From: Magnetococcales bacterium
Lineage (GTDB): Bacteria; Pseudomonadota; Magnetococcia; Magnetococcales; UBA8363
Assembly: GCA_002753515.1 (NCBI GenBank)
Contig: PEAK01000002.1
Span: forward strand, 1 to 64,000
Length of the DNA: 64,000 nt
Direction: 5' to 3'
The translations under genes and the position numbers were made by a program. The notes beneath the pieces were generated by a model. It was given only the letters and a program-made list of their open reading frames with translations, was not told the DNA's origin and ran no database searches. Position 1 is the stretch's first letter. Each line of letters starts with the position of its first letter. This document shows, piece after piece, positions 3,001-63,897 of this stretch.

Positions 3001-6000
3001 GTATGTTGGTTCGGGTGGGGTGTTGTCGCAACTGCGCAACGATAACGTCATCAAACAGGCGGCGGCGGATGGCCTGTTGGCGGCCAGTGCCACGAATGGC
3101 CTGGAGTTCAAGAATGCAGCGGCGGCTGGGGGTATCCAGGTGGGACGGGTCACGTATCTGGCGCGTACCGCCGATACTTCATCCACCGTAACCACAAGTA
3201 CTGTCAACAAGGATGGCATCGCCAGTTCCGGGGCTGTGGCCTTGTGGTTACCCGCCGGTAATCTGACCCAGGATACGACTGCCAACAGTACGGTCCGGCT
3301 CGGGGATATCCAGGCGACCTCGTTGTCGATGAAAGTGGATACGGGTTATGTCACCCTGGATAATCCCACCAATCAGGTGGGAACCATCGCCGCTGTTCTG
3401 GCCGGGGCGGGCCAAGCGTTTAGCGAAATGGACCTGGATGGTTTGACGGTGGGTAGCCTGACTTCGACGGTGACTGGGGCCAGCACCACGGTCAGTGGTA
3501 TCACCACCAATGTCGGGGATGTCATCCTCAAGGCCTCAGCCAACAGCACCAGTACGACCGGGGATTTGGCCGTTTCCCAAAATATCGATACCACCAATGG
3601 TGGGGCCATTGGTACGGGGGCGGTTGTTCGGGCGGCTGCGGGCAAGGGGGCGGTGACCGAATCGGGTACGGCCATCGTCAAGGCCAAATCGTTGCTGGTA
3701 GATGCAACGTCCACCTCGTCGTTGGACAATCTGAACGAAGTTTTTGACAGTGGTGCCGGTTTCGGGACCCTTACGGCCAGTATCAGCGGCGCCAGTCAGG
3801 GGCTCAAATTCAAGAATGTACGCTCCCTGGATGTGGGCACCGTGACGGTATCCCACTCGGTGGGACCATTAAGTGGGATTACGGCGACCACGGGTGATGT
3901 CACCCTGACGTTGTTGAATGCCGCGACCACCAACGATCTGACGCAGACGCAATTGGTCAAGGCGGGTGGGCTCAAGACCGACGTGGATACCGGCAAAGTG
4001 GCGCTCAACCTGATCAGCGCCGGCAACACCAATGAGATCGGCACCTTGTCGGCGGTATTGGGTGGGGCTGGCAAAGATTTCACCCTGAACGAAAAAGATG
4101 GGCTCAGCATTGGTACCGTTAATAATACTTCCGGCATTACCACCGCCAGTGGTGGCAAGATTGCCGTGGCGACGCAGGGGGGTACGATTACCGTCACCCG
4201 TAATGTGACGGCTGGCGGGACGGGTACGGTGGATCTCCGGGCCAACGGGGCGACTTCGGACATTGCCATCAATCCGGCGACCTCGCAGACGGCCACCATC
4301 AGTTCGGGCAATGGCGGTACTTTGCAGCTCTATGCCGGTCAATCGTTGACGACGGCCACCGCCAACGGTACCGGAACCGAGTTGGATACCAGCGGCAACA
4401 TTTTGTTGCAGACCGGGTCGGGCATGGGGAGTGACAGCAATCGCATCGAGATCGCCAATGCGGCCAAGCTGGCGGCGACTGCGGGCAACTCAGTGTTCTT
4501 GCGCAAGTTGGGGACGGCGAGTGATTTGGAGATCGGCACGGTTACGGCACTTGATTTCAATGGGCTGACCACGTTTGTCGCCGGTCCTGCCAATACGAGT
4601 GGGCTCACGACCACGGCCAACAATGGCAACATTTCGCTCACGGATCAGGGTGGGGATATTACAGTTACCCAAAATATAACGGCGCATGGCAGTGGCTATG
4701 TTGATATTCGGACGGCGAATGCCGGTAATTTGGGGGATATCGCCATCACCAATGGCTCGACGATTTCGAGTACCAGCGGTACCGTGCAGGTCATTGCCGG
4801 TAACACCATCACCACCAGCAGTGCCAATGGCACGACGACGGAGATTGCGACCACCGGCAGCGCGTTGTTGGAAGCGGGTTTGAGCGTCGGGACCGACAGC
4901 AACCGCATCGAGATGGGTAGTGTGAGCAAGGTGGCGGCGCGCACGTTGAGCAATGGTGCCAATAGTAATTTATGGTTGCGCAAGCTGGGGACCACCAGCG
5001 ATCTGGAGATTGGTACGGTGACGGTGCAAAACAGCGCCAGCACCTTGGATAATGCGGTTTCGGCGACTGGTCAGACGACGGTGGCAAGTGCCAAGGCCAC
5101 GGAGTTGAAGGGATTATCGACTACGGCCAACAATGGCAATATCACCCTGACGGACCAGGGGGGTGATCTGACCATCACGCAAAATGTGACGGCGCATGGC
5201 AGTGGGTATGTGGATATCAGGACGGCCAATGCCGGTAATTTGGGGGATATCGCCATCAACAATGGCGCGACGGTATCGAGTACCAGCGGTGCGGTGCAGG
5301 TGATCGCCGGCAACACCCTCACCACCGACAGTGCCAGTGGCACGACAACGGAGGTGGCCACAGCGGGTACGGCATTGTTGGAAGCGGGATTGAGCGTAGG
5401 GACTGACAGCAACCGCATTGAGATGGGCAGTGTGAGCAAGGTGGCGGCGCGCACGTTGAGCAATGGAGTCAACAGCAATCTGTGGTTGCGTAAGCTTGGG
5501 AGCAGCAGCGATCTGGAGATTGGCACGGTGACGGTGCAAAACAGCGCCAGCACCTTGGACAATGCGGTGTCGGCGACTGGGCAAACGACGGTAGCTGCTG
5601 GTTTGGCAACGGCGTTGAAAGGATTGTCGACCACGGCCAACAATGGCAACGTCACCCTGACGGATCAGGGTGGGGATATCACGATTACGCAAAACATCAC
5701 GGCGCATGGCAGTGGGTACGTGGATATCAGGACGGCCAATGCCGGCAACCTGGGGGATGTCGCCATCAATAATGGCGCGACGCTATCGAGTACCAGCGGT
5801 GCCATTCAAATGATTGCCGGGAATACCATTACCACCGACAGTGCCAACGGCACGACAACGGAGATTTCGACGACGGGGACGACGTTGTTGGAAGCGGGTT
5901 TGAGCGTGGGCACCGACAGCAACCGCATCGAGATGGGCAGTGTGAGCAAGGTGGCGGCGCGCACGTTGAGCAATGGTGCCAATAGTAATTTGTGGTTGCG

Positions 6001-42852: not shown

Positions 42853-43893
42853 TCACTCCCGGAACACATCCTCCAGGGATTGCGAAGTCAAAACCCGGTC
42901 ACCCCAGTTTTCCAGTGTTGCCGCATCGGCGGTACGAATGCGCTCGTCCGCCCACTCAGGCAATGATCCAAAACGTCGCTTGAGTTGCCGCATCAGCAGC
43001 GCGGACGCGCCTTCCTGGCGTCCTTTGTATTCGCCGATCTGGATGCCTTCCTGGCGTCCTTTGTATTCGCCGATCTGGATGCCTTCCTGGCGTCCTTCCT
43101 GGCGTCCTTCTTTCCACCAAATCTGCTTGTTTTGTTCTACAATCTCTCGTGCGAATTGGGACATCATTTCCGTTTCCTCCTGTGGACTAACCCGAACGAC
43201 AATACCTCGGACCGATTCCCTATCCAGTTCTGGAAAGGTGGTTAACAGATAGATTACAATGGGGAACAAAAGTTCTGGCGCTTCGGCCAAAGCGACCACG
43301 ATGGTTTCCAAGGCATCGTGTTGGGCTTTCGCGTCCCGGGTGCCATATTTCAGGGCCAACAAGCCAGCTCGTAGCCGGGCATGGCGTGCAATCTGCGCAT
43401 CTTCAATGTTGCCGAGGTTCACCGTGACAAACCGGACATTCATCAACCAAGGGTGCAGAATGGGGTTCGCATCCACCAGGGTGATGAATTCATGGGGAAC
43501 ATGCCACTCTTGTTCCCCATGGTAAAAAATCATCTGGACGATGGCTGGCAACAGGGTCCAGTCTTTATTTTCCCGAGTCTTCTGGTCTAGAAAAGCGAAC
43601 GTGCCACGTAATGCCTGCCAACCGACCTTCCGGTCCGGGTAGCTTTTATGCTCGATCAGCACGTAGATGTGTAGTGGCTTGCCACTGAGCATGGTTGCAA
43701 CGAACATGCGGTCCGAAAAATATCCCCGCAACTCTTCATCCACGAACGAGCCATCCACCAACTGTGGTGGCAAGGATGCCAGCAGCTCAGAGATTTCCAC
43801 AGGCAGATACTCGTGCAGCAAGGCCCCGGCGGTCTCAGGATGGGACATCAACGCCTTGAACAGGCGGTCATGCGGTTGGGTGAGGTCAGTCAT
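42853..43893 (-). CDS. Rpn-family (PD-(D/E)XK) nuclease / putative transposase
   Basis: The product is 346 residues. The N-terminal ~250 residues carry the Rpn pattern: HDRLFKALMSHPETAGALLHEYLP, LVDGSFVDEELRGYFSDRMF and a catalytic-type IYVLIEHKSYPDRKVG (E-x-K). The C-terminus holds a Glu/Gly/Gln-rich tandem repeat (EGRQEGIQIGEYKGRQ) and a DUF4351 domain (residues ~295-345; LLMRQLKRRFGSLPEWADERI). Rpn proteins promote RecA-independent recombination and some are implicated in phage defence. It stands alone on the minus strand between mshM and the pilin gene, next to a palindromic element. Confidence 0.92.
   Translation of the reverse strand: MTDLTQPHDRLFKALMSHPETAGALLHEYLPVEISELLASLPPQLVDGSFVDEELRGYFSDRMFVATMLSGKPLHIYVLIEHKSYPDRKVGWQALRGTFAFLDQKTRENKDWTLLPAIVQMIFYHGEQEWHVPHEFITLVDANPILHPWLMNVRFVTVNLGNIEDAQIARHARLRAGLLALKYGTRDAKAQHDALETIVVALAEAPELLFPIVIYLLTTFPELDRESVRGIVVRVSPQEETEMMSQFAREIVEQNKQIWWKEGRQEGRQEGIQIGEYKGRQEGIQIGEYKGRQEGASALLMRQLKRRFGSLPEWADERIRTADAATLENWGDRVLTSQSLEDVFRE
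43009..43095 (-). repeat. 36-bp tandem repeat inside the Rpn gene
   Basis: Two perfect 36-bp units (43009-43044 and 43045-43080) and a partial third encode the 12-residue unit EGIQIGEYKGRQ. Whole-codon units allow slippage to change the linker length without loss of frame. A further short GRQE repeat follows on the upstream side of the coding strand. Confidence 0.95.
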
Positions 43894-53660: not shown

Positions 53661-54092
53661 ATGAAAATGTTGACTCATCATCTGCTGGCTCTGGGTGCCG
53701 TTTTGGCAAGCGTTTCCAGTGCCGGTGCCGCCGATCTGTCGGTCGTCGCCCACCCGCAAAATTCCCGGGATGCACTGGATAAAAGCCAGGTTTCCGATCT
53801 CTACCTGGGGCGAACGCATCTTTTTCCCGATGGCAGCCATGCCAGGGTGATCGATCACCCACGGGACAGTGACATTCGTAAAGATTTCTTTGAAAAGGTC
53901 AATGGCATGTCCCTTAATCAAGTCAATGCCTATTGGGCGCGCATGACCTTTACCGGCAGGGTGTTGCCCCCCGAAACGGCTGCGGATAGCCAGGCGGTTC
54001 AGACCATCGTTGTGGATACACCCCAAGCGATTGGTTATGTCCCGGATGCCCAGCGGCAGCCTGCGGTCAAGGAGATACTTCATCTTCAATGA
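53661..54092 (+). CDS. Small PstS-like periplasmic binding protein
   Basis: The product is 143 residues, about half the size of a full phosphate-binding protein. A signal peptide (residues 1-~23, SSAGA before ADLSVVAH) leads to one PBP-like domain. Motifs are VSDLYLGRTHLFPDG, DHPRDSDIRKDFFEKV, YWARMTFTGRVLPPE and QAIGYVPD. Such short forms resemble the ligand-binding lobes of PstS/PBP-like_2 proteins. It overlaps the hybrid kinase start by 4 bp (ATGA) and could present a ligand to that kinase's periplasmic domain. The ligand (an oxyanion such as phosphate?) is not shown by the sequence. Confidence 0.82.
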   Translation: MKMLTHHLLALGAVLASVSSAGAADLSVVAHPQNSRDALDKSQVSDLYLGRTHLFPDGSHARVIDHPRDSDIRKDFFEKVNGMSLNQVNAYWARMTFTGRVLPPETAADSQAVQTIVVDTPQAIGYVPDAQRQPAVKEILHLQ

Positions 54093-56725
54093 ATTCCGGT
54101 CGATCCAGTTTAGAGTATCGCCTGACGATCTTTGTTGGTTTGGGGATGACGCTGTTCGCCTTGCTGATCGGGGTGGGAACCTACGATTACATGGTCGATA
54201 CCGAGGTCAACAATGCGTTGATCCTGGAGGATCAGTTGGCACGAACGGTTCTTTCCCAGGCCTCGGTCGGTGTCTACGCTAAAAATATTGTTATTTCACA
54301 AGATGTTATCCAAGCACTGATGGTAAATCCCTTGATTTTAGCAGTGCAGGTCATCTCCCACGATGGTTTCCTGGTGGAACAGAACAAAATGCCGGTATTG
54401 GAGGTTACCAAGGCTGTTATTCATCCCTTGCCGTCACCGGTGAATACCGCTGAAGGCATTGGATCTTTGCTCGTTTTTCTGGATTTTCCCGCCATTCATC
54501 GAGCGGCTACCAAAAAATCGCTCTCCTATGCCGGGGTGATGGTGGCGCAAACCGTTGTTGCAACAATGATTGTCCTTTTCCTGGTTCATACCCTGCTGGT
54601 CAAACCGGTCACCCGCTTGGCCAAACGAATGGGTGCGATCCAACCGGGTCATGGGGATCGATTGCCGATGGATGACCACAGCCGCGACGATGAAATACTC
54701 CTGCTGGCCCGAAGTGCCAATGCCTTGCTGGATGCCGCCGAGGAATCCATCGCCCTGGAACGGCAATTGCGTCAGCAATTGGCCGAGACCAATCAGCAGT
54801 TGCAGGAAGCCTTGCGTGCGGCGGAGCAGGCGACACGCAGTAAAGGGTTGTTTCTGGCCAACATGAGCCATGAAATTCGTACCCCGATGAACGGTGTCGT
54901 GGGGATGATCGACTTGGCTCTGAACACGCCCATGTCGGATACCGCCCGGGATTATCTTCTCCAGGCGAAAAAATCATCACGGCACCTGCTGCGCGTGATC
55001 CATGACATTCTGGACTTTTCAAGACTGGAGGAACATGCAATAACGTTGGAATCCGTGGAATTTGATTGGGATACCCTGCTGAGTGACGTCATGGGCATGT
55101 GCAGTTGGGGAACTGGGGGCAAAGATATCCAACTGATTCAGGTGACGTCACCCGAGCCCATCGGGGTGGTGATCGGTGACCCGTTTCGTTTGCAACAAAT
55201 CTTGATCAACCTCATTGACAATGCCCTCAAGTTCACCGAAGCGGGTGAAGTTGTCATTCGGGCCGAGGTGTTGCAACGGCTGGGGGATTCGGTGCGGGTG
55301 CAATTCTCGGTTCAAGATACCGGTCCGGGTATTCCCCGGGAACATCGGGACAAAATTTTCTCTGCCTTTACCCAGGCGGACGACAGCATAACCCGGAAAT
55401 TTGGCGGCTCGGGGCTGGGCTTGTCCATTTGTCAAAGCCTGGTGATCTTGATGGGTGGGACGATGCGTTTGGAAAGTGAACCGGGTCGTGGGAGTATTTT
55501 TTATGTCACGGTGACATTGGGGTGCGGTGTGGAACCCCTGCCCCGGGTTTCGCCCCTTCGGAATGGCTTGTCAGGGGTCAGGGTGTTGTTGGTGGATGAT
55601 CAAGCCATCAATCGGCTGGTTGCGACAAAAATGCTTGAGGTGTTCGGTCTGGTAGTTGATACGGCGGAGACGGGCGCGGATGCTGTCAACAGGGTGAAAT
55701 CGCAACACTATGACCTGGTATTGATGGACCTGCAAATGCCGGGAATGGATGGATTCACGGCAACGCGGCTCATACGTGGCGAACCTTGTGGGGCCAATAT
55801 GCCCATTCTCGCCATGTCAGCCCATGCTTCTGACGGGGACCGTCGCCGGTGTCTGGAGGCGGGTTTGAACGACCTCATCACCAAACCGATCGATCAGGAA
55901 CACCTGTTTCGGGTTTTGCTGCGCTGGATGGGACCGCGCAATCAGGAGGTTCAAGGGATTGCCAACAGCGAAACGCGGGCATTCCCTTTTCCCGGTATCG
56001 ATCTGACCATTGCCCTGTCGCGTGTGCATCAGGATTGGCGTTTGTTGCGCACCGTGTTTGCCGATTTTCGCAGCCAATATGCCGAAGCGGGGGAGCAGCT
56101 TGACCACTGGTTGGCAAGTGGTCATCCGGATGATGTAGCGTCTGCCGAACGATTGCTCCATGCGCTTCGGGGCGTGGCCGGAAATCTCGTCGCCCCGGAT
56201 CTCATGGCGATAACGGAAACATTCGAGGCGGCGCTTCGTTCCCGCGACACCGGGCGGTGGTCTGTCCTGTCGCACGCTTTACGGGATGCTTTGACCGTGG
56301 TTCTGGGCTCCATGGCCGCTTGGGAGCGGCAGATCGCACAGCGGGCCGGTGCTGACGATACAGCATCGGATGGGCGGCAGGCTGTGGATTGCCTGTCGGT
56401 CGTCACGATGGTCGAACAGCTACAGGGGTTATTGCAGGCCCGCGATGTTCGGGCACAAACCGTATTCGCCACCTTGAAACCTCTATTGATTAACCAAATA
56501 TTTGCCGGGATCTGGCTGGACCGCCTGCATTCTATCGATTATTATGTAGATCATTTTGATTTTAAAAAAGCACATACGGTTTGGATGACGGTGTTGCCGG
56601 AATTGACTCTATTAAACCGCAGCTATCTTGGGATGCGCAGTTCTTGTCATCCCCGCGAAGGCGGGGATCCAGAAAGTCAGGGGAAGGTGTGTAGACTCCC
56701 TGGATCCCCGCTTTCGCGGGGATGA
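54089..56725 (+). CDS. Hybrid histidine kinase with HPt; C-terminus altered by repeat insertion
   Basis: The product is 878 residues. A membrane helix (~12-32), a periplasmic domain (~33-145) and a second helix (~150-173) lead to a HAMP-like region (~175-230). The kinase has His261 in [32 protein letters not shown] and GSGLGLSI. A receiver holds Asp547 ([13 protein letters not shown]), and an HPt has His691 (LHALRGVAGN). About 110 residues follow the HPt; the last ~38 (from LLNRSYLGM) are translated from the palindromic element beginning at 56613, so the native end has been replaced. The start overlaps the PstS-like gene by 4 bp. Confidence 0.92.
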   Translation: MNSGRSSLEYRLTIFVGLGMTLFALLIGVGTYDYMVDTEVNNALILEDQLARTVLSQASVGVYAKNIVISQDVIQALMVNPLILAVQVISHDGFLVEQNKMPVLEVTKAVIHPLPSPVNTAEGIGSLLVFLDFPAIHRAATKKSLSYAGVMVAQTVVATMIVLFLVHTLLVKPVTRLAKRMGAIQPGHGDRLPMDDHSRDDEILLLARSANALLDAAEESIALERQLRQQLAETNQQLQEALRAAEQATRSKGLFLANMSHEIRTPMNGVVGMIDLALNTPMSDTARDYLLQAKKSSRHLLRVIHDILDFSRLEEHAITLESVEFDWDTLLSDVMGMCSWGTGGKDIQLIQVTSPEPIGVVIGDPFRLQQILINLIDNALKFTEAGEVVIRAEVLQRLGDSVRVQFSVQDTGPGIPREHRDKIFSAFTQADDSITRKFGGSGLGLSICQSLVILMGGTMRLESEPGRGSIFYVTVTLGCGVEPLPRVSPLRNGLSGVRVLLVDDQAINRLVATKMLEVFGLVVDTAETGADAVNRVKSQHYDLVLMDLQMPGMDGFTATRLIRGEPCGANMPILAMSAHASDGDRRRCLEAGLNDLITKPIDQEHLFRVLLRWMGPRNQEVQGIANSETRAFPFPGIDLTIALSRVHQDWRLLRTVFADFRSQYAEAGEQLDHWLASGHPDDVASAERLLHALRGVAGNLVAPDLMAITETFEAALRSRDTGRWSVLSHALRDALTVVLGSMAAWERQIAQRAGADDTASDGRQAVDCLSVVTMVEQLQGLLQARDVRAQTVFATLKPLLINQIFAGIWLDRLHSIDYYVDHFDFKKAHTVWMTVLPELTLLNRSYLGMRSSCHPREGGDPESQGKVCRLPGSPLSRG

Positions 56726-56806: not shown

Positions 56807-57865
56807 ATGGAATCGCAACGGCAATGGTGCGTGTTGTGCGTCGATGATGTGATCATTGATTTACGATATCTTGTGACCGTGTTGCAGGGGACCTACAGGG
56901 TATTGGTGGCGACGAACGGCACGGAGGCCCTGGAAACGGCGCACAACGAAGCCGTCGATATCATTTTATTGGATGCCAACTTGCCGGTCATGGACGGCTA
57001 TGAAATTTGTCGTCGTCTCAAGGGGGATCCCGTGACCGCTGCGATTCCCATTTTATTTTTGACGGCCAGGCATGAGGATGCAGATGAGGCCAGGGGATTG
57101 GCTTCGGGGGCGGTGGATTACATTCGCAAACCGATCAATTCGCAACTCTTGTTGGCGCGCATCCACAACCAACTGGAATTGATACGGCATCGCAACCATT
57201 TGGAAACCATGGTGCAGGAACGTACCAACGAATTGGAACATGCCCGATTGTTGCTGACATCCGCCAATCAGACCATCGCCCGGGAAATCCATGACGAATT
57301 CGGTTGTAATTTGGCAGCGATTCGCATCGCCTTGAGTTTGTTGGAGCGGCAACAATCAACCGGCGATGCCAGGCAACGGTGCCAGGAAATCATCGCTTTG
57401 GTGAATCATACACAGCACATGGTACAACGCATTGTCATGTCGTTGCCCCCGACCGCGTTGGATTATCGGGGGTTGTTCGCCGCTCTGGAATGGTTGACCG
57501 GGCAGATCGCCCGGCACTCCGGCTTGAAGGTGCAATTGATCAATAAGGCGACCTTTGTCCTGAATGATGCGCAATCCATGGCCCTGTTCCGCATCGCCCA
57601 GGAAGCGATCACCAACATTCTACGCCATGCCCAGGCATCCTCCATCGACGTCATCCTGGGACTGGAGGGGGATTGGGTGGTGTTGCGGGTTTGCGATGAT
57701 GGCCGGGGATATCAGCGGCTGCCGTCCGATCCCGGGACTTCCTTTGGCATTGCCGGCATGGAAGAGAGGGCCAGAGTGGTGGGCGGGAGGGTTACCATCG
57801 CGACCGGAACCGGGGGACGGGGAACCGAGGTCATGGCCCGGGTACCGTTAATTTGTGAGGCTTGA
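56807..57865 (+). CDS. Soluble receiver-histidine kinase fusion (HisKA_3, NarX/DegS-type)
   Basis: The product is 352 residues from the ATG at 56807; a GTG 36 bp upstream lies next to the repeat element and is less likely. The order is receiver first (Asp56 in IILLDANLPVMDGYE, Lys in YIRKPI), then a coiled coil (~125-155). A HisKA_3 dimerisation helix follows with His162 in AREIHDEFGCNLAAIRIALS, then a compact ATPase domain (EAITNILRHAQAS, VCDDGRGY, GIAGMEERA). No membrane segment is present. It ends only 5 bp before the NarL-type regulator and is the obvious kinase for it. The upstream hybrid kinase HPt could phosphorylate its receiver. Confidence 0.92.
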   Translation: MESQRQWCVLCVDDVIIDLRYLVTVLQGTYRVLVATNGTEALETAHNEAVDIILLDANLPVMDGYEICRRLKGDPVTAAIPILFLTARHEDADEARGLASGAVDYIRKPINSQLLLARIHNQLELIRHRNHLETMVQERTNELEHARLLLTSANQTIAREIHDEFGCNLAAIRIALSLLERQQSTGDARQRCQEIIALVNHTQHMVQRIVMSLPPTALDYRGLFAALEWLTGQIARHSGLKVQLINKATFVLNDAQSMALFRIAQEAITNILRHAQASSIDVILGLEGDWVVLRVCDDGRGYQRLPSDPGTSFGIAGMEERARVVGGRVTIATGTGGRGTEVMARVPLICEA

Positions 57866-57870
57866 ATCCC

Positions 57871-58503
57871 ATGTTCAAACTCTTTGTCACCGATGATCAT
57901 GCGGTCCTGCGCAAGGGAATCCTGTCCCTGTTGGCCAATGAACCCGATTTTCAGGTGGTTGGTCAAAGTGGTAGTGGTCGGGATACCATTCGCCAAGTCC
58001 TCAATGGCGATGTGGATATCCTGGTACTCGATCTCAGGTTGCCGGATATCAGCGGTTTGGACGTTTTGCAGCGCGTCAAGTTGGACAAACCCGCAGTCAA
58101 AGTGGTTGTTTTGACCATGTTCTCCGGTGATGACTGGGCTTTGCGGTCCCTGAATGCGGGCGCATCCGGTTATTTGACCAAGGACATGGCTCCCGATCAC
58201 ATCGTTGCCGCCATTCGTTCCATAGCCAATGGTGGTAAATATTTATCCCCTGCCGTGGGGGCACTTTTCATGGAAAAAACGGCCATGAATAGTGGTGAAT
58301 TATCGCATCAATCCCTCTCGAACAGGGAGTTTGGCATTTTCCTCAAGCTTGCCGCCGGTGTCCCTATTGCACGCATTGCCGAGGATCTTTGTCTCTCCCC
58401 CAGTACGGTCAGTTCCTACCGCGTGCGCATCCTTAAAAAAATGGGCATGGCCAACAATGCCGATCTCGTACGCTATGCCGCCCAGCATGGTTTGTTTTCC
58501 TGA
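57871..58503 (+). CDS. NarL/FixJ-family response regulator
   Basis: The product is 210 residues from the ATG at 57871; an overlapping TTG at 57862 is possible. The receiver has Asp54 in ILVLDLRLPDISGLDV, Thr in VVLTMFSG and Lys in YLTKDM. The C-terminal LuxR-type helix-turn-helix (~145-205) has LSNREFGIFLKLAAGVPIARIAEDL and LSPSTVSSYRVRILKKMGMANNADLVRYA as its recognisable parts. It should act as a DNA-binding output of the preceding REC-kinase. Target promoters are not evident nearby. Confidence 0.94.
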   Translation: MFKLFVTDDHAVLRKGILSLLANEPDFQVVGQSGSGRDTIRQVLNGDVDILVLDLRLPDISGLDVLQRVKLDKPAVKVVVLTMFSGDDWALRSLNAGASGYLTKDMAPDHIVAAIRSIANGGKYLSPAVGALFMEKTAMNSGELSHQSLSNREFGIFLKLAAGVPIARIAEDLCLSPSTVSSYRVRILKKMGMANNADLVRYAAQHGLFS

Positions 58504-58563: not shown

Positions 58564-58607
58564 ATAACCGCAACCAACACGAGGGACACATCGTTTCCCA
58601 GCGGCAT
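58564..58607. repeat. Possible decayed end of the dispersed palindromic element
   Basis: Sequence here (AACCGCAACCAACACGAGGG, then a CATCGTTTCCCAGCGGCAT stretch) aligns loosely with the right-hand end of the ~150-bp element (AACCGCAACCAGCGCGGGA, then CGTAGTTTTCTAGCGTCAT). No hairpin follows, so it would be a relic. Confidence 0.4.
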
Positions 58608-58619
58608 TGCAAGCGAAAC

Positions 58620-58824
58620 AAGGTGATCATTGTACCCTCTATGAACATCTTGAACATCTTGAACACCTTGAACATCTTGAACATCTTGTTTTATATAAAT
58701 TATATATTAATAAATAAATAATAAATACTTCTAAAATTTGTTATAAATGTTATTCAAGGTGTTCAAGGTGTTCAAGATGTTCAAGGTGTTCAAGATGTTC
58801 ATGGTGGGGGGGCATGATCACCTT
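58620..58824. repeat. 205-bp dyad built from 9-bp tandem repeats
   Basis: The left arm (58642-58688) is five units of TGAACATCT (one TGAACACCT) plus TG. The right arm (58755-58801) is five units of the reverse complement, AGATGTTCA or AGGTGTTCA. The 66-bp centre is almost pure A+T. Both arms begin, from the outside, with AAGGTGATCAT (58620-58630 and, inverted, 58814-58824), then 10 or 11 bp, then ATG. Each arm thus opens a short inward frame: MNILNILNTLNILNIL... (26 aa, plus, from 58641) and MNILNTLNILNTLNTL... (23 aa, minus, from 58802). It fills most of the ~420-bp gap between the NarL-type regulator and glnA, which converge on it. Its function is unknown. Confidence 0.95.
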
Positions 58825-58868
58825 GGCGCTCAAGGGGGACGATCAGGGGGTCGGGGACTTCAAAGGAA

Positions 58869-58898
58869 CGGCCCTTTCCCAATGAAGGAAAAGGGCCG
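58869..58898 (-). terminator. Terminator hairpin of glnA
   Basis: CGGCCCTTTTCC and GGAAAGGGCCG pair on the minus strand around a 6-7-base loop, 29 bp after the glnA stop. A mixed GTTCCTTTG follows instead of a clean T-run, so it is a moderate terminator. It could also act for transcripts from the plus side. Confidence 0.7.
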
Positions 58899-58926
58899 CC
58901 GAGATCCCACCGGATGATTTCGGGGA

Positions 58927-60348
58927 TTAGAGGCTGTAATACATGAGGAATTCCACCGGGTGCGGGGTATGCTCCATGCGGTAGACCTCACCCATTTTCA
59001 GGTTGATCCAGGCGTCGATGAGATCGTCGCTGAACACCCCACCCTTTTTCAAGAATTCGCGATCCTTGGAGAGTTCCTGCAAAGCTTCGCGCAGGGATCC
59101 GCACACCGTGGGAATGGCTTTCAATTCCTCGGGCGGCAGGTCATACAAGTTTTTCTCCATGGGGGCACCGGGATCGATTTTATTTTCGATTCCGTCCAGG
59201 CCGGCCATGAGAATGGCGGCAAAGGCGAGATAGGGGTTGGAGGCGGGATCGGGGAACCGGACTTCGCAACGCTTGGCTTTGGGATTGGTGGCCGCCGGGA
59301 TACGGATGCTGGCGGAGCGGTTGCGGGCCGAATGGGCCAACAACACCGGGGCTTCAAAGCCGGGGATCAGACGCTTGTAAGAGTTGGTGGTCGAGTTGGT
59401 GAACCCGTTCAGGGCGCGGGCATGTTTTTTGATGCCCCCGATGAACCACAGGGCTTCCTGGGAGAGATCGGCGTATTGGTTGCCGGCGAATTTGGGTTGC
59501 CCATCCTTCCAGATGGAGACGTGGCAATGCATGCCGGAGCCGTTGTCACCGGAAAGGGGCTTGGGCATGAACGTGGCGGTTTTGCCGGCGGCATGGGCGA
59601 CGTTATGCACGACATATTTGTATTTTTGCACATTGTCGGCCATGAGGGTGAGCTTGTCGAAGCGCATGTCGATTTCGCACTGACCGGCGGTGGCGACTTC
59701 GTGGTGATGGAATTCAATGTTGATCCCCATGGATTCCATCATCGTGCACATTTCGGAACGCAAATCCTGGAAGGAGTCCACTGGCGGCACGGGGAAGTAG
59801 CCACCCTTGATGCCGGGACGATGGCCATGGTTGCCATCTTCGTAGTCGGCATTGCTGTTCCAGGCCCCCTCTTCTGAGTCGAGTTCCACTTGGGCGTAGT
59901 TGATACCGGCACCGAAGCGGGCGGAGTCGAAAATGAAGAATTCCGCTTCCGGTCCGAAAAAGGCGGTGTCGCCGATACCGGTGAATTTCAGGTAGGCTTC
60001 GGCCCGTTTGGCCACGGCACGCGGGTCACGGGAGTAATTTTCGCCGGTGAACGGATCGTGAATGTCGGCGAACAGGATCAGTGTCGCCGCTTCGGTGAAC
60101 GGATCCAGGACAGCCGATGTCGGGTCTGGTTTGAACACCATGTCGGAATGGTTGATTTCGCACCAGCCGGCGATGGAGGAGCCGTCAAAGCCGAAGCCGT
60201 TCTCAAAAACGTCCTCGTTGAACATGCGGGACGGACAGGTGATGTGCTGCCATTGGCCATGAAAATCGGTGAAGCGGAAATCGACGAATTTGACATCGTT
60301 TTCCTTGATCATGGACATCACTTTTTTTACCGCTTCTTGATCAGCCAT
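58927..60348 (-). CDS. glnA: Glutamine synthetase type I
   Basis: The product is 473 residues from the ATG at 60348 (GAGAGG 9 bases upstream), close to the usual 468-471. It condenses ammonium and glutamate to glutamine with ATP. GSI signatures are present: [26 protein letters not shown], the metal and glutamate residues in [27 protein letters not shown] and RCEVRFPDP. The adenylylation loop is present with Tyr in [10 protein letters not shown], so control by GlnE-type adenylylation is expected. It lies 99 bp after amtB on the same strand, and the two may share the sigma-54 promoter before amtB. Confidence 0.98.
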
Positions 60349-60447
60349 TATGCCAATCCTCTCTCTTTTCCTGAAATGTTGATAATTCACCCGGAGGTCG
60401 TGTCTTGATGGTTATCCTGCCTGGCACGTACCCGTCGAGAGCTTACG

Positions 60448-61782
60448 TTAAAAAGAACCCGAGTCGAAGTTGTATCCTTTTTCATCGTGGAATGCCAGAT
60501 CCAATCCTTCGGACTCTTGATCGCGGTCAGCACGCAGGCCCACCATGCCGTCGATGATTTTGAGGATGACAAAGGTCAAGACACCACTCCAGGCAAGGGT
60601 TGCCACGATGCCCAAGGATTGAATCAGCAGTTGGTGCGACATGGATCCGCCGCTGGCGAAGCCGCTGCCGCCGAGCATGGGGGAGGCGAAAACGCCGGTC
60701 AGGAGTGTTCCGAGGATACCGCCGACACCGTGGACGGGGGAAACGTCGAGGGAGTCGTCGATTTTCAAACGTTGTTTGATCAGTTGCGTGAACCAGTAGC
60801 AGGCCCATCCGGCACTGGTGCCGATGACGGCGGCACCGATGGGTCCGACGAATCCGGAGGCCGGGGTGATGGTGCCGAGTCCGGCGACCATGCCGGTGAC
60901 GATACCCAGGATACTGGGTTTGCCGTGGCGTACCCATTCCATGGTCATCCAGGCGAGGGATCCCGTTGCGGCACCGATATGGGTGACGAGCATGGCCATA
61001 CCGGCGTTACCGTTGGCGGCCAGGGCGCTCCCGGCGTTGAAGCCGAACCAGCCGACCCAGAGCATGGCGGCACCGGTGAAGACCATGGTCATGTTATGGG
61101 GCATCATCGGTGTTTTGGGAAAGCCACGGCGATTGCCGATGAGGAGGGCGGAGACCAGGGCGGCGATACCGGCATTGATATGGACGACGGCACCGCCGGC
61201 GAAGTCCATGAATCCCATTTCCTGTAGCCATCCCCCGCCCCAGACCCAATGGCAGATGGGGGCGTAGACGATGGTGACCCAGAGGACGGAAAACAGCAGC
61301 ACGGCGGAAAACCGGGTGCGTTCGGCAAAGCCACCGATGACCAGGGCCGGGGTGATGATGGCGAAGGTCATTTGAAACATGACGAACACGGTTTCGGGGA
61401 TATCGTTGGAGAGCGATGTCGGGGAGATGCCGAGGAGGAATGCCTTGCCCAGGCCACCCCAAAAGGCTTTGAGGGGGCCGCCGTCGCCGAAGGCCAGGCT
61501 GTAATCGATGAAAAACCACGCGACCGAAACCAGACAGGCGATGGCGAAGCATTGCATGAGGATGGAGAGGACGTTGCGCGTCCTGACCAGGCCGCCGTAG
61601 AACAGGGCGAGGCCCGGGAGGGTCATGAACAGCACCAGGGCGGTGGAGGTCAATACCCAGGAGGTATTGGCGGCATTGAGGGCAACGGTTTCCGCGGCGT
61701 GGGCATGGCCCGTGATGAGCATGACGAGCAGGGCGAGACCGGGACCGGGGAGTTTTCGGATGATGTGTTGGCCATCTTTCAT
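60448..61782 (-). CDS. amtB: Ammonium transporter
   Basis: The product is 444 residues with a signal peptide (to HAHA) and eleven membrane helices. Conserved AmtB landmarks are the pore twin histidines in FAGGAVVHINAG and DVSPVHGVGG, the periplasmic S1-site region (ALFYGGLVRTRNVLS) and the Phe gate segments. The C-terminal tail that normally docks GlnK is present (GLRADRDQESEGLDLAFHDEKG). No glnK lies beside it, unlike the common glnK-amtB order, so the regulator must be encoded elsewhere. It is followed by glnA. Confidence 0.97.
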   Translation of the reverse strand: MKDGQHIIRKLPGPGLALLVMLITGHAHAAETVALNAANTSWVLTSTALVLFMTLPGLALFYGGLVRTRNVLSILMQCFAIACLVSVAWFFIDYSLAFGDGGPLKAFWGGLGKAFLLGISPTSLSNDIPETVFVMFQMTFAIITPALVIGGFAERTRFSAVLLFSVLWVTIVYAPICHWVWGGGWLQEMGFMDFAGGAVVHINAGIAALVSALLIGNRRGFPKTPMMPHNMTMVFTGAAMLWVGWFGFNAGSALAANGNAGMAMLVTHIGAATGSLAWMTMEWVRHGKPSILGIVTGMVAGLGTITPASGFVGPIGAAVIGTSAGWACYWFTQLIKQRLKIDDSLDVSPVHGVGGILGTLLTGVFASPMLGGSGFASGGSMSHQLLIQSLGIVATLAWSGVLTFVILKIIDGMVGLRADRDQESEGLDLAFHDEKGYNFDSGSF

Positions 61783-61869
61783 GGGGCATTGGCTTACGGT
61801 TGGGGGTTGATTCCAAGAAGGGGATCCGGGATTCCCTTGCCGATACTGACCTTAAACGGGTTACTGCCA

Positions 61870-61884
61870 GCAAGGGGTGGGCCA
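61870..61884 (-). promoter_or_regulatory. Sigma-54 promoter of amtB(-glnA)
   Basis: On the minus strand CTGGCCCACCCCTTGCT fits the sigma-54 pattern YTGGCACG-N4-TTGCW, with the invariant GG and GC dinucleotides at the correct spacing. It ends ~88 bp before the amtB ATG. Sigma-54/NtrC control of ammonium uptake genes is well established. No clear NtrC binding palindrome was seen in the ~115 bp upstream to the next gene. Confidence 0.75.
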
Positions 61885-61997
61885 GAGGGGGACTCCATGG
61901 AAGAACAAGGGCTTGTGGTATTTCCAGTCACTGTAGATTGCCTGATTAATTGGCATTGTGCTTAACAATGAGGCAGAGATCCCTGAAAAACGCCTAA

Positions 61998-63848
61998 TTA
62001 TTGGTCAGTTTTGGCCGGCATCGTCCTTTCCTTGAGTTCGTTCACCACGGTTTCCATGACCGATCCCCATTGTTTGGCTCGCTGTTGGCGAATCAGTCGC
62101 AAAGTCGGATACCACGGGGAATCGGACCGGTTGAGCAACCAGCGCCAATCGGGTACCGCCGCCAGCAGTACCCAACCGGGTCGCCCCAGGGCGCCGGTCA
62201 GGTGGATGACGGCACTGTCCACGGCGATCACCAGATCCAGTGGCTGGATCAGCGCGGCGGTGCTGGCGAAATCGCTTAATTCCCCGCTGCAATCCATGAT
62301 GTGGGGATAACGGGATAACAAGTGCCGTTCGGAAGGGGTGATGTCTTTTTGCAGCGAGACGAAGGTCACCCCGGTCAGCTCCAGAAGGGGTATCAGGGTC
62401 TCCAGTTCCAGCGAACGGTTGCCGTCATTCTTTTGATTTGGATTGCCCCGCCAGGCGATGCCAATGGTCGGGGTGTTGGCAAAACGCAATCGTTCCCGGA
62501 AAGCCGCGGTCAGGTCAGGATCGGGCGTGAGATAGGGGATACGTCCGGGAATGGTATCCAGGGTGGTGCGCATCACCTGCGGCAGACTCATGAGGGGGAG
62601 TTGATAATCGCACGGGGGGATGGGATCAGCCGGCCCCGGGAGGGCATCACATTCGGGCAGGGAGGCGAATAAACGCTGGAGCGGCGGCGGGGCGAGGAGT
62701 ACCAGCCGGCCCACCCGGGGTTTGACCAGCGGCAGATAACGAATCATTTGCAGGCTGTCGCCGTACCCCTGTTCACAATGCAACAACAACGTTTTTCCCG
62801 GTATGGGGGTTCCATCCCACAACGGTTGCGGATGCGGATGCGGGGCGATGTCCCGGGATTGCCAACGCCAGGCCCATTTTTGCCATCCCAGGGGATAATC
62901 CCCCATCAGCAGGCGGATCAGGCTTTCATTGTAATGCGCCGAAGGGGCGTGGGGCTGAATGGCCTGTGCCCGTTGCAACGCCTCCAGGGCCTCGGGCAAG
63001 CGACCCAGTTGATGCAGGCACCCCCCCAGGTTACTCCACGCGTCCCCATAATCGGGTTTCAGGCGTAAAGCCTCCCGGTAATGGGCCAACGCTGGCTCCG
63101 GTTGCAGGCGCTTTTGCAGGAGATTGCCACAATTATTATGGAGTTCCGGGGTGTTGGGCTCAAGCTGCAACGCCTTTTGCAAGCACGCCATGGCCCGGTC
63201 CCCATCCCCTCGGGCATCCCAGGCCATGCCCAACAGGTTGAGCAGGGCGACGTGGTGGGGTTGCAGGGCCAAACATCGTTGCCAAGTGTGGATGGCCTGA
63301 TCCAACTGCCCTTGTTGCCAGTGGACCCGCCCCAGTTGCATCAGGATATCGGGATGGTCGGGGGCCTGTTGTTCGGCACGGGTCAACATCTCCCGCGCCA
63401 ATGCCCACTCACCACGGGATAACAGCAGACAACCGGCATTATACAGCGCTTCCAGATAGTCGGGGCGGGTGAACAGGGCGCGCTGCCACAACGTCAAGGC
63501 CGCATCCGGCTGACCTTGTTGATTCAGGAGCGTGGCCAGGTTGTTCATGGCTTCAACGAAGTCGGGCCGCAGGATCAGGGCACGTTGGAAATATTCCCGC
63601 GCTTCCGCCAACGCCCCCTGATCCTGCAAAACGATGCCCATATTGTTCAAGGCATGGACATGGGTGGGTTGATGCTGCAACACCTGTTGGTAACGGGCCG
63701 TGGCCTGTTCCAGATGTCCCAGGGACTGGAAACGGACCCCGGTTTGAAATATCTCATCGATTGTGGTTTGCGGGAGCGGGCTCACAGGGGCGCTGGCTTT
63801 TGCTGACCCACCCCTCCGCCTCTGCCGGGATAACTGTTTCTTGCCCAT
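61998..63848 (-). CDS. TPR protein with C-terminal glycosyltransferase-9-like domain
   Basis: The product is 616 residues. A basic N-terminus (~1-20) precedes about nine TPR units from ~residue 30 to 335 (for example ALNNMGIVLQDQGALAEAREYFQRAL split over two helices). The C-terminal ~270 residues resemble the ADP-heptose/GT9-type GT-B fold found in many TPR-glycosyltransferase fusions: LLHCEQGYGDSLQMIRYLP, IGIAWRGNPNQKND and LDLVIAVDSAVIHLTGALG. A sugar transfer role in glycan or flagellin decoration is inferred; donor and acceptor are unknown. It is not linked to amtB in function. Confidence 0.85.
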   Translation of the reverse strand: MGKKQLSRQRRRGGSAKASAPVSPLPQTTIDEIFQTGVRFQSLGHLEQATARYQQVLQHQPTHVHALNNMGIVLQDQGALAEAREYFQRALILRPDFVEAMNNLATLLNQQGQPDAALTLWQRALFTRPDYLEALYNAGCLLLSRGEWALAREMLTRAEQQAPDHPDILMQLGRVHWQQGQLDQAIHTWQRCLALQPHHVALLNLLGMAWDARGDGDRAMACLQKALQLEPNTPELHNNCGNLLQKRLQPEPALAHYREALRLKPDYGDAWSNLGGCLHQLGRLPEALEALQRAQAIQPHAPSAHYNESLIRLLMGDYPLGWQKWAWRWQSRDIAPHPHPQPLWDGTPIPGKTLLLHCEQGYGDSLQMIRYLPLVKPRVGRLVLLAPPPLQRLFASLPECDALPGPADPIPPCDYQLPLMSLPQVMRTTLDTIPGRIPYLTPDPDLTAAFRERLRFANTPTIGIAWRGNPNQKNDGNRSLELETLIPLLELTGVTFVSLQKDITPSERHLLSRYPHIMDCSGELSDFASTAALIQPLDLVIAVDSAVIHLTGALGRPGWVLLAAVPDWRWLLNRSDSPWYPTLRLIRQQRAKQWGSVMETVVNELKERTMPAKTDQ

Positions 63849-63897
63849 GGTTGACCGGTGCCGAAGGGCTGTCAGGGAACGTTTCAGGCATGATCCT

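Follow-up and report, generated by a model that had tools for sequence, protein, structure and literature searches.

In P4, the region annotated as required in cis for replication, crr, directly follows the alpha primase gene on its 3' side. The type 1 repeats of crr, 8 bp in length, at 4314 and 4323 on the + strand, face others at 4366 and 4384 on the - strand across a T-rich centre. In the SaPI islands, the C-terminal domain of Rep reads iterons that lie downstream (PMC7581432). Plasmid maintenance has been assayed for pri-ori (PMC6092414). The archaeal plasmid pRN1 requires a long stem-loop downstream (3') of its replication gene, a primase-helicase gene; the stem is kept while the sequence is not, and the element is functional when moved (PMC4234260). 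Satellite origins are recognised by two repeat sets flanking an AT-rich region and by a position immediately 3' of a primase or rep gene.

We compared with these systems a dyad of 9-bp repeats located in the window, that is, the whole 64,000-nucleotide stretch of Magnetococcales DNA analysed here (contig C45 of its genome). The dyad spans 58619-58825 (207 bp) and consists of two inverted sets of 9-bp iterons around an AT-rich centre, bounded by outer boxes. The features of the region are listed below, where C18 and C121 denote contigs of the same genome that carry further dyads and G001 denotes the genome of a sister species.

57862..58503, + strand: response regulator gene (Response_reg + GerE), neighbour of the dyad
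58565..58618, + strand: left flank, similar to the left end of a short repeat found genus-wide (ACCGCAACCAACACG...GTTTCCCAGCG.CATT...GCGAAAC)
58619..58630, + strand: left outer box CAAGGTGATCAT, complementary at 12/12 positions to 58814-58825
58631..58641, no strand assigned: spacer TGTACCCTCTA, whose counterpart in C18 and C121 starts CGTACCCC
58642..58686, + strand: left iteron array, 5 x TGAACAYCT with a 9-bp period
58687..58756, no strand assigned: AT-rich centre, the proposed melting region, 70 bp between full units
58757..58801, - strand: right iteron array, 5 x TGAACAYCT inverted, with a 9-bp period
58814..58825, - strand: right outer box ATGATCACCTTG, pairing with the left box at 12/12 positions
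58872..58894, - strand: glnA site resembling an intrinsic terminator, independent of the dyad, with a counterpart in G001 where no dyad is present
58927..60390, - strand: glnA, within a 5-kb block inverted relative to G001

The sequence-only reading had described a symmetric dyad in which five units face five inverted units and outer boxes extend the symmetry, and both the coordinates and the complete pairing of the boxes confirm this description. Its 66-bp AT-rich centre is correct as to composition, 58689-58752 being 94% AT compared with 45% for the window, and close as to length. Four units of the left array are TGAACATCT and one is TGAACACCT; the arms differ from each other at four unit positions, all of them T/C. 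The suggestion that these differences preserve G-U pairing holds for RNA of the + strand (three G-U and one C-A) and fails for the - strand, where the reverse is found. Predicted minimum free energy is -107.7 kcal/mol for + strand RNA, compared with -40.2 +/- 4.1 for 200 dinucleotide shuffles (z -16.6), and -91.5 for - strand RNA (z -14.9), with 0/200 shuffles reaching the value of either strand. The inverted repeat structure of the window dyad is not due to chance. RNA covariation is no discriminator here, because identical paired changes are expected if a single protein reads the iterons of both arms. Against Rfam, the window dyad matched only microRNA-precursor models, all well below the gathering score, as would be expected of a long stem.

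Other repeats were observed in the window and in the genus. The C-terminus of a sensor kinase open reading frame at 54089-56725 (...SSCHPREGGDPE..., window ~56640-56712) is a REP-type repeat read as protein, a perfect 36-bp tandem repeat of 2.5 copies is located at 43009-43097, and positions 1-44 are a run of G, possibly a sequencing artefact at the contig end. A genus-wide repeat of ~200 bp (L109, L108, L111, L110; for example G000:C67:52663) has ends of the form ACCGCA...TGCGGT, TTAA-like flanking bases and REP-type hairpins inside, and looks like a MITE family.

Two further dyads are present in the same genome, at C18:13253-13441 and C121:38226-38378, together with a single dyad end at C36:8904-8921. 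The outer box with its adjoining GTACCC recurs in C121, in C36 and at one end of the C18 dyad. The C18 dyad is 79% identical to the window copy and contains the same TGAACAYCT units and outer box. The C121 dyad resembles the window copy in standing alone between housekeeping genes, in this case two co-directional ones, and in having a centre that begins TTGTTTTATATAAATTAT; its word is TGAGCATCT, changed in both arms together. The exact array was found in none of the others among 48 genomes of the order, and comparison of the whole dyad with plasmids and phages gave no match. Exact-array matches were obtained in 19 GTDB contigs and 73 viral contigs, which were scanned for facing arrays, and the outer-box pattern was detected in 5 stretches of viral contigs. 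With respect to whether the dyad is conserved in place or dispersed, it is dispersed in its own genome, and the sister species lacks it at the corresponding position.

The sister species, G001, is the nearest genome and is 97% identical at glnA. Relative to G001:C160:13546-18538, the 5.0-kb block glnA-amtB-TPR (window 58862-63856) is reversed, and the window dyad sits in one of the two breakpoint intervals of this inversion. Both intervals contain repeats in this genome. In G001, the two places flanking the block are only 85 and 232 bp long and contain no dyad. The right interval, from window 63897 to C45:64223, contains a 22-bp inverted repeat, TTAATTCTACTTTGTCACATTA (starting at 63897) and TAATGTGACAAAGTAGAATTAA (starting at 64202), enclosing a cluster of CATTCCCGCGAAAGCGGGAATCC-type repeats. 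In an attempt to polarise the inversion, other members of the genus were examined, and the regulator and FHA neighbours were not found beside their glnA. G001 also lacks a dyad at the C121 site, where it has ~66 bp in place of 295, and at C18 likeness to G001 ends just before the dyad, near the contig end.

The stop codon of a P4-type primase-helicase gene (AAA_25) marks the start of the C18 dyad; the 614-residue product of this gene matches phage primases in its N-terminal part. A weak match led to a dyad at G005:C142 with a different word, TGATCACCT, in both arms, and the dyad at G008:C190 has the same layout with the word TGACCATCT. Both are located at the 3' end of genes homologous to the C18 primase, in islands that each contain a tyrosine integrase, accompanied by AlpA in G005. 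AT content of the centres of four dyads is 94, 85, 87 and 73%. The G005 array is part of the reading frame, giving ...HDHLDHLDHLD... in translation, and related arrays, where translated, form a primase tail of varied residues (DHLDHLDHL, VTGVTG, HPPHPP). Searches for the primase gave no match in viral contigs or, as DNA, in phages, and its profile found no relative in the PDB. In G001:C166:13500-20500 (L376), the 3' end of a primase gene carries an 18-bp composite unit, CCTTGGCAATGTTGGCAT, with more than one facing array. Two islands (L279:7527-8315 and L281 after 2157) contain a small open reading frame after the primase gene and dyad, the products being similar at the N-terminus, MG..E.L..SGL...L.GD.L...PRE..T...R..IR..K..L..LLQ.

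The association of facing arrays with primase genes was surveyed at 44 primase/AAA_25 loci of the order, a locus counting as positive when, no further than 500 bp from the stop codon, some 7-mer occurred two or more times in tandem and two or more times in inverted orientation. Inverted tandem arrays were detected at the 3' end in 18 of the 44 loci, compared with 0/40 in-gene stretches further upstream in the same loci and 1/880 dinucleotide shuffles. Seven of the 18 positives had already been seen before the test was written; among loci unexamined until then, 11/30 were positive. A relaxed test was positive at 22 loci, compared with 1/110 control windows, and 45 of the 74 unit-to-unit steps it recorded were 9 bp, with 8 of 18 bp. 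The words vary by locus and match between arms (TGTTACGGG, TGAAACGGG, TGTCCCATG, TTCCCACCC, TCCACCCCA, GCAACAGGT, TGGCCACCT and others), and in many relatives the array is located upstream of the stop codon, within the gene. The assemblies are for the most part drafts; by these tests no array was seen at about half of the loci, and some positives are weak, with irregular spacing, or are pairs of close relatives (L340/L355, L352/L353). Of seven phage records that contain a related gene, three have arrays just 3' of the stop codon and nowhere else in the stretch read.

Combined, these comparisons indicate that the window dyad is probably an orphan copy of an iteron replication origin of the phage-satellite type, P4-like or PICI-like. 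The sequence-only reading could name no family for the dyad; the layout matches P4 crr and PICI origins. P4 crr and ori resemble the dyads in that repeats at 9-bp spacing, here 8 bp long, face inverted copies over a T-rich centre directly downstream (3') of a Zn-ribbon/Toprim primase-helicase gene, and the crr word, TGTTCACCT, is one base from the G005 word. P4 crr differs in comprising two 120-bp direct copies with fewer and less regular repeats and no long in-register stem, the stem of the window copy being tighter than crr needs, and in adjoining its gene, as the window copy does not. The window copy also differs from PICI and SaPI origins in having no rep, integrase or island. The pRN1-type crenarchaeal origin shares a stem-loop 3' of a primase-helicase gene but belongs to an archaeo-eukaryal primase and is reported without iteron structure. 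Two repeat sets, of 5+5 units of 9 bp, flank an AT-rich region in the window copy, whereas a position immediately 3' of a primase or rep gene is found for C18, G005 and G008 and not for the window copy.

Analogy with P4 crr, SaPI Rep and pRN1 leads us to infer origin function for the dyads next to primase genes. The initiator would be a primase-helicase with a DNA-reading C-terminal part that binds the iterons of both arms, helicase would assemble from each side of the dyad, and the AT-rich centre would melt. The distinct 9-bp word of each island may keep each initiator loyal to its own origin. Likeness to C18 is what points to descent of the window and C121 copies from such an origin. No primase or integrase remnants were found around either copy, and because no such gene is nearby and the position differs from that of satellite origins, the window copy is classed as an orphan rather than a working origin. 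Most likely this copy is a displaced passenger that a short repeat may have carried along; any action on it would at most be in trans, with the C18 primase as one candidate. A bolder proposal, which we regard as unlikely, is that solitary satellite origins, coupled to a short repeat, spread in the chromosome, where the primase-helicase of a resident satellite replicates them in trans or is titrated by them as decoys.

The alternative that survives best, though improbable as a full account, is that the dyad is a dispersed palindromic repeat of MITE or REP type with no role in replication, the arms of which are kept alike by slippage and hairpin-templated correction. Such palindromes are likewise short, dispersed and intergenic, and the presence of dyads at three places in this genome and their absence from G001 at the C45 and C121 sites fit this explanation, as does the joint change of the C121 word. 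Similarly, the left flank of the window copy resembles the genus-wide short repeat, and the GTTTCCCAG-to-box junction recurs at C121 and, more distantly, at G001:C172, although not at C18. This flank at 58565-58618 and the similar junctions suggest that orphan copies may have travelled with such a repeat. However, a mobile palindrome explains neither the dyads at primase-gene 3' ends, each with its own word, nor the likeness to P4 crr, and the dyad differs from MITE and REP palindromes in its 9-bp internal arrays, its link to primase genes and its very low copy number. While the outer boxes are inverted repeats, the matching G001 sites show no duplication; a target-site duplication was not found at C121, and the matching G001 sites differ over tens to hundreds of bases. 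The mobile-repeat explanation may nevertheless hold for the spread of the orphan copies, while the dyad itself descends from an origin.

We consider it very unlikely that the dyad is a bidirectional transcription terminator, as the sequence-only reading had proposed, or an RNA processing hairpin between convergent genes. The neighbours are indeed convergent, the regulator on the + strand and glnA on the - strand, and the predicted RNA stem is extremely stable on both strands. However, a terminator-like site already serves glnA (58894-58872) and has a counterpart in G001, where there is no dyad, the C121 copy lies between co-directional genes, and many related arrays are within a reading frame. 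In addition, a hairpin has no need of arms built, as here, from homogeneous direct repeats, and a search for intrinsic terminators, defined by a short G+C-rich stem, a short loop and a T run directly after it, found none within the dyad, the loop of which is ~70 bases.

Two other proposals of that reading are barely credible. A pair of repeat peptides draws on open frames that do read ATG-(Asn-Ile/Thr-Leu)n over 26 and 23 codons, but these peptides are accounted for by the 9-bp unit, since any open frame through it reads as a three-residue repeat, no ribosome-binding sequence was seen before either ATG, the ATG is missing from some arms (TTG in one C18 arm, GATCACC in the G005 arms), and residues change freely in relatives. 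Iteron-like arrays can also be centromeres, and a nucleoid-protein or parS-like partition array would be close in kind to the protein-bound array proposed here, but the constant neighbour of non-orphan copies is a primase-helicase gene, partition families were not found among the genes tested beside them, and the protein would most likely be a satellite replication initiator.

The origin reading brings together P4 crr, PICI origins and the tripeptide-repeat tails at primase C-termini, which are usually seen apart, in one testable pattern, in which the 3' end of a primase gene carries an inverted iteron dyad with 9-bp spacing and each island has a word of its own. This pattern gives a route to find satellite origins by sequence and to match initiator to origin. 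The orphan chromosomal copies may be passengers, decoys or sites for a satellite initiator acting on host DNA.
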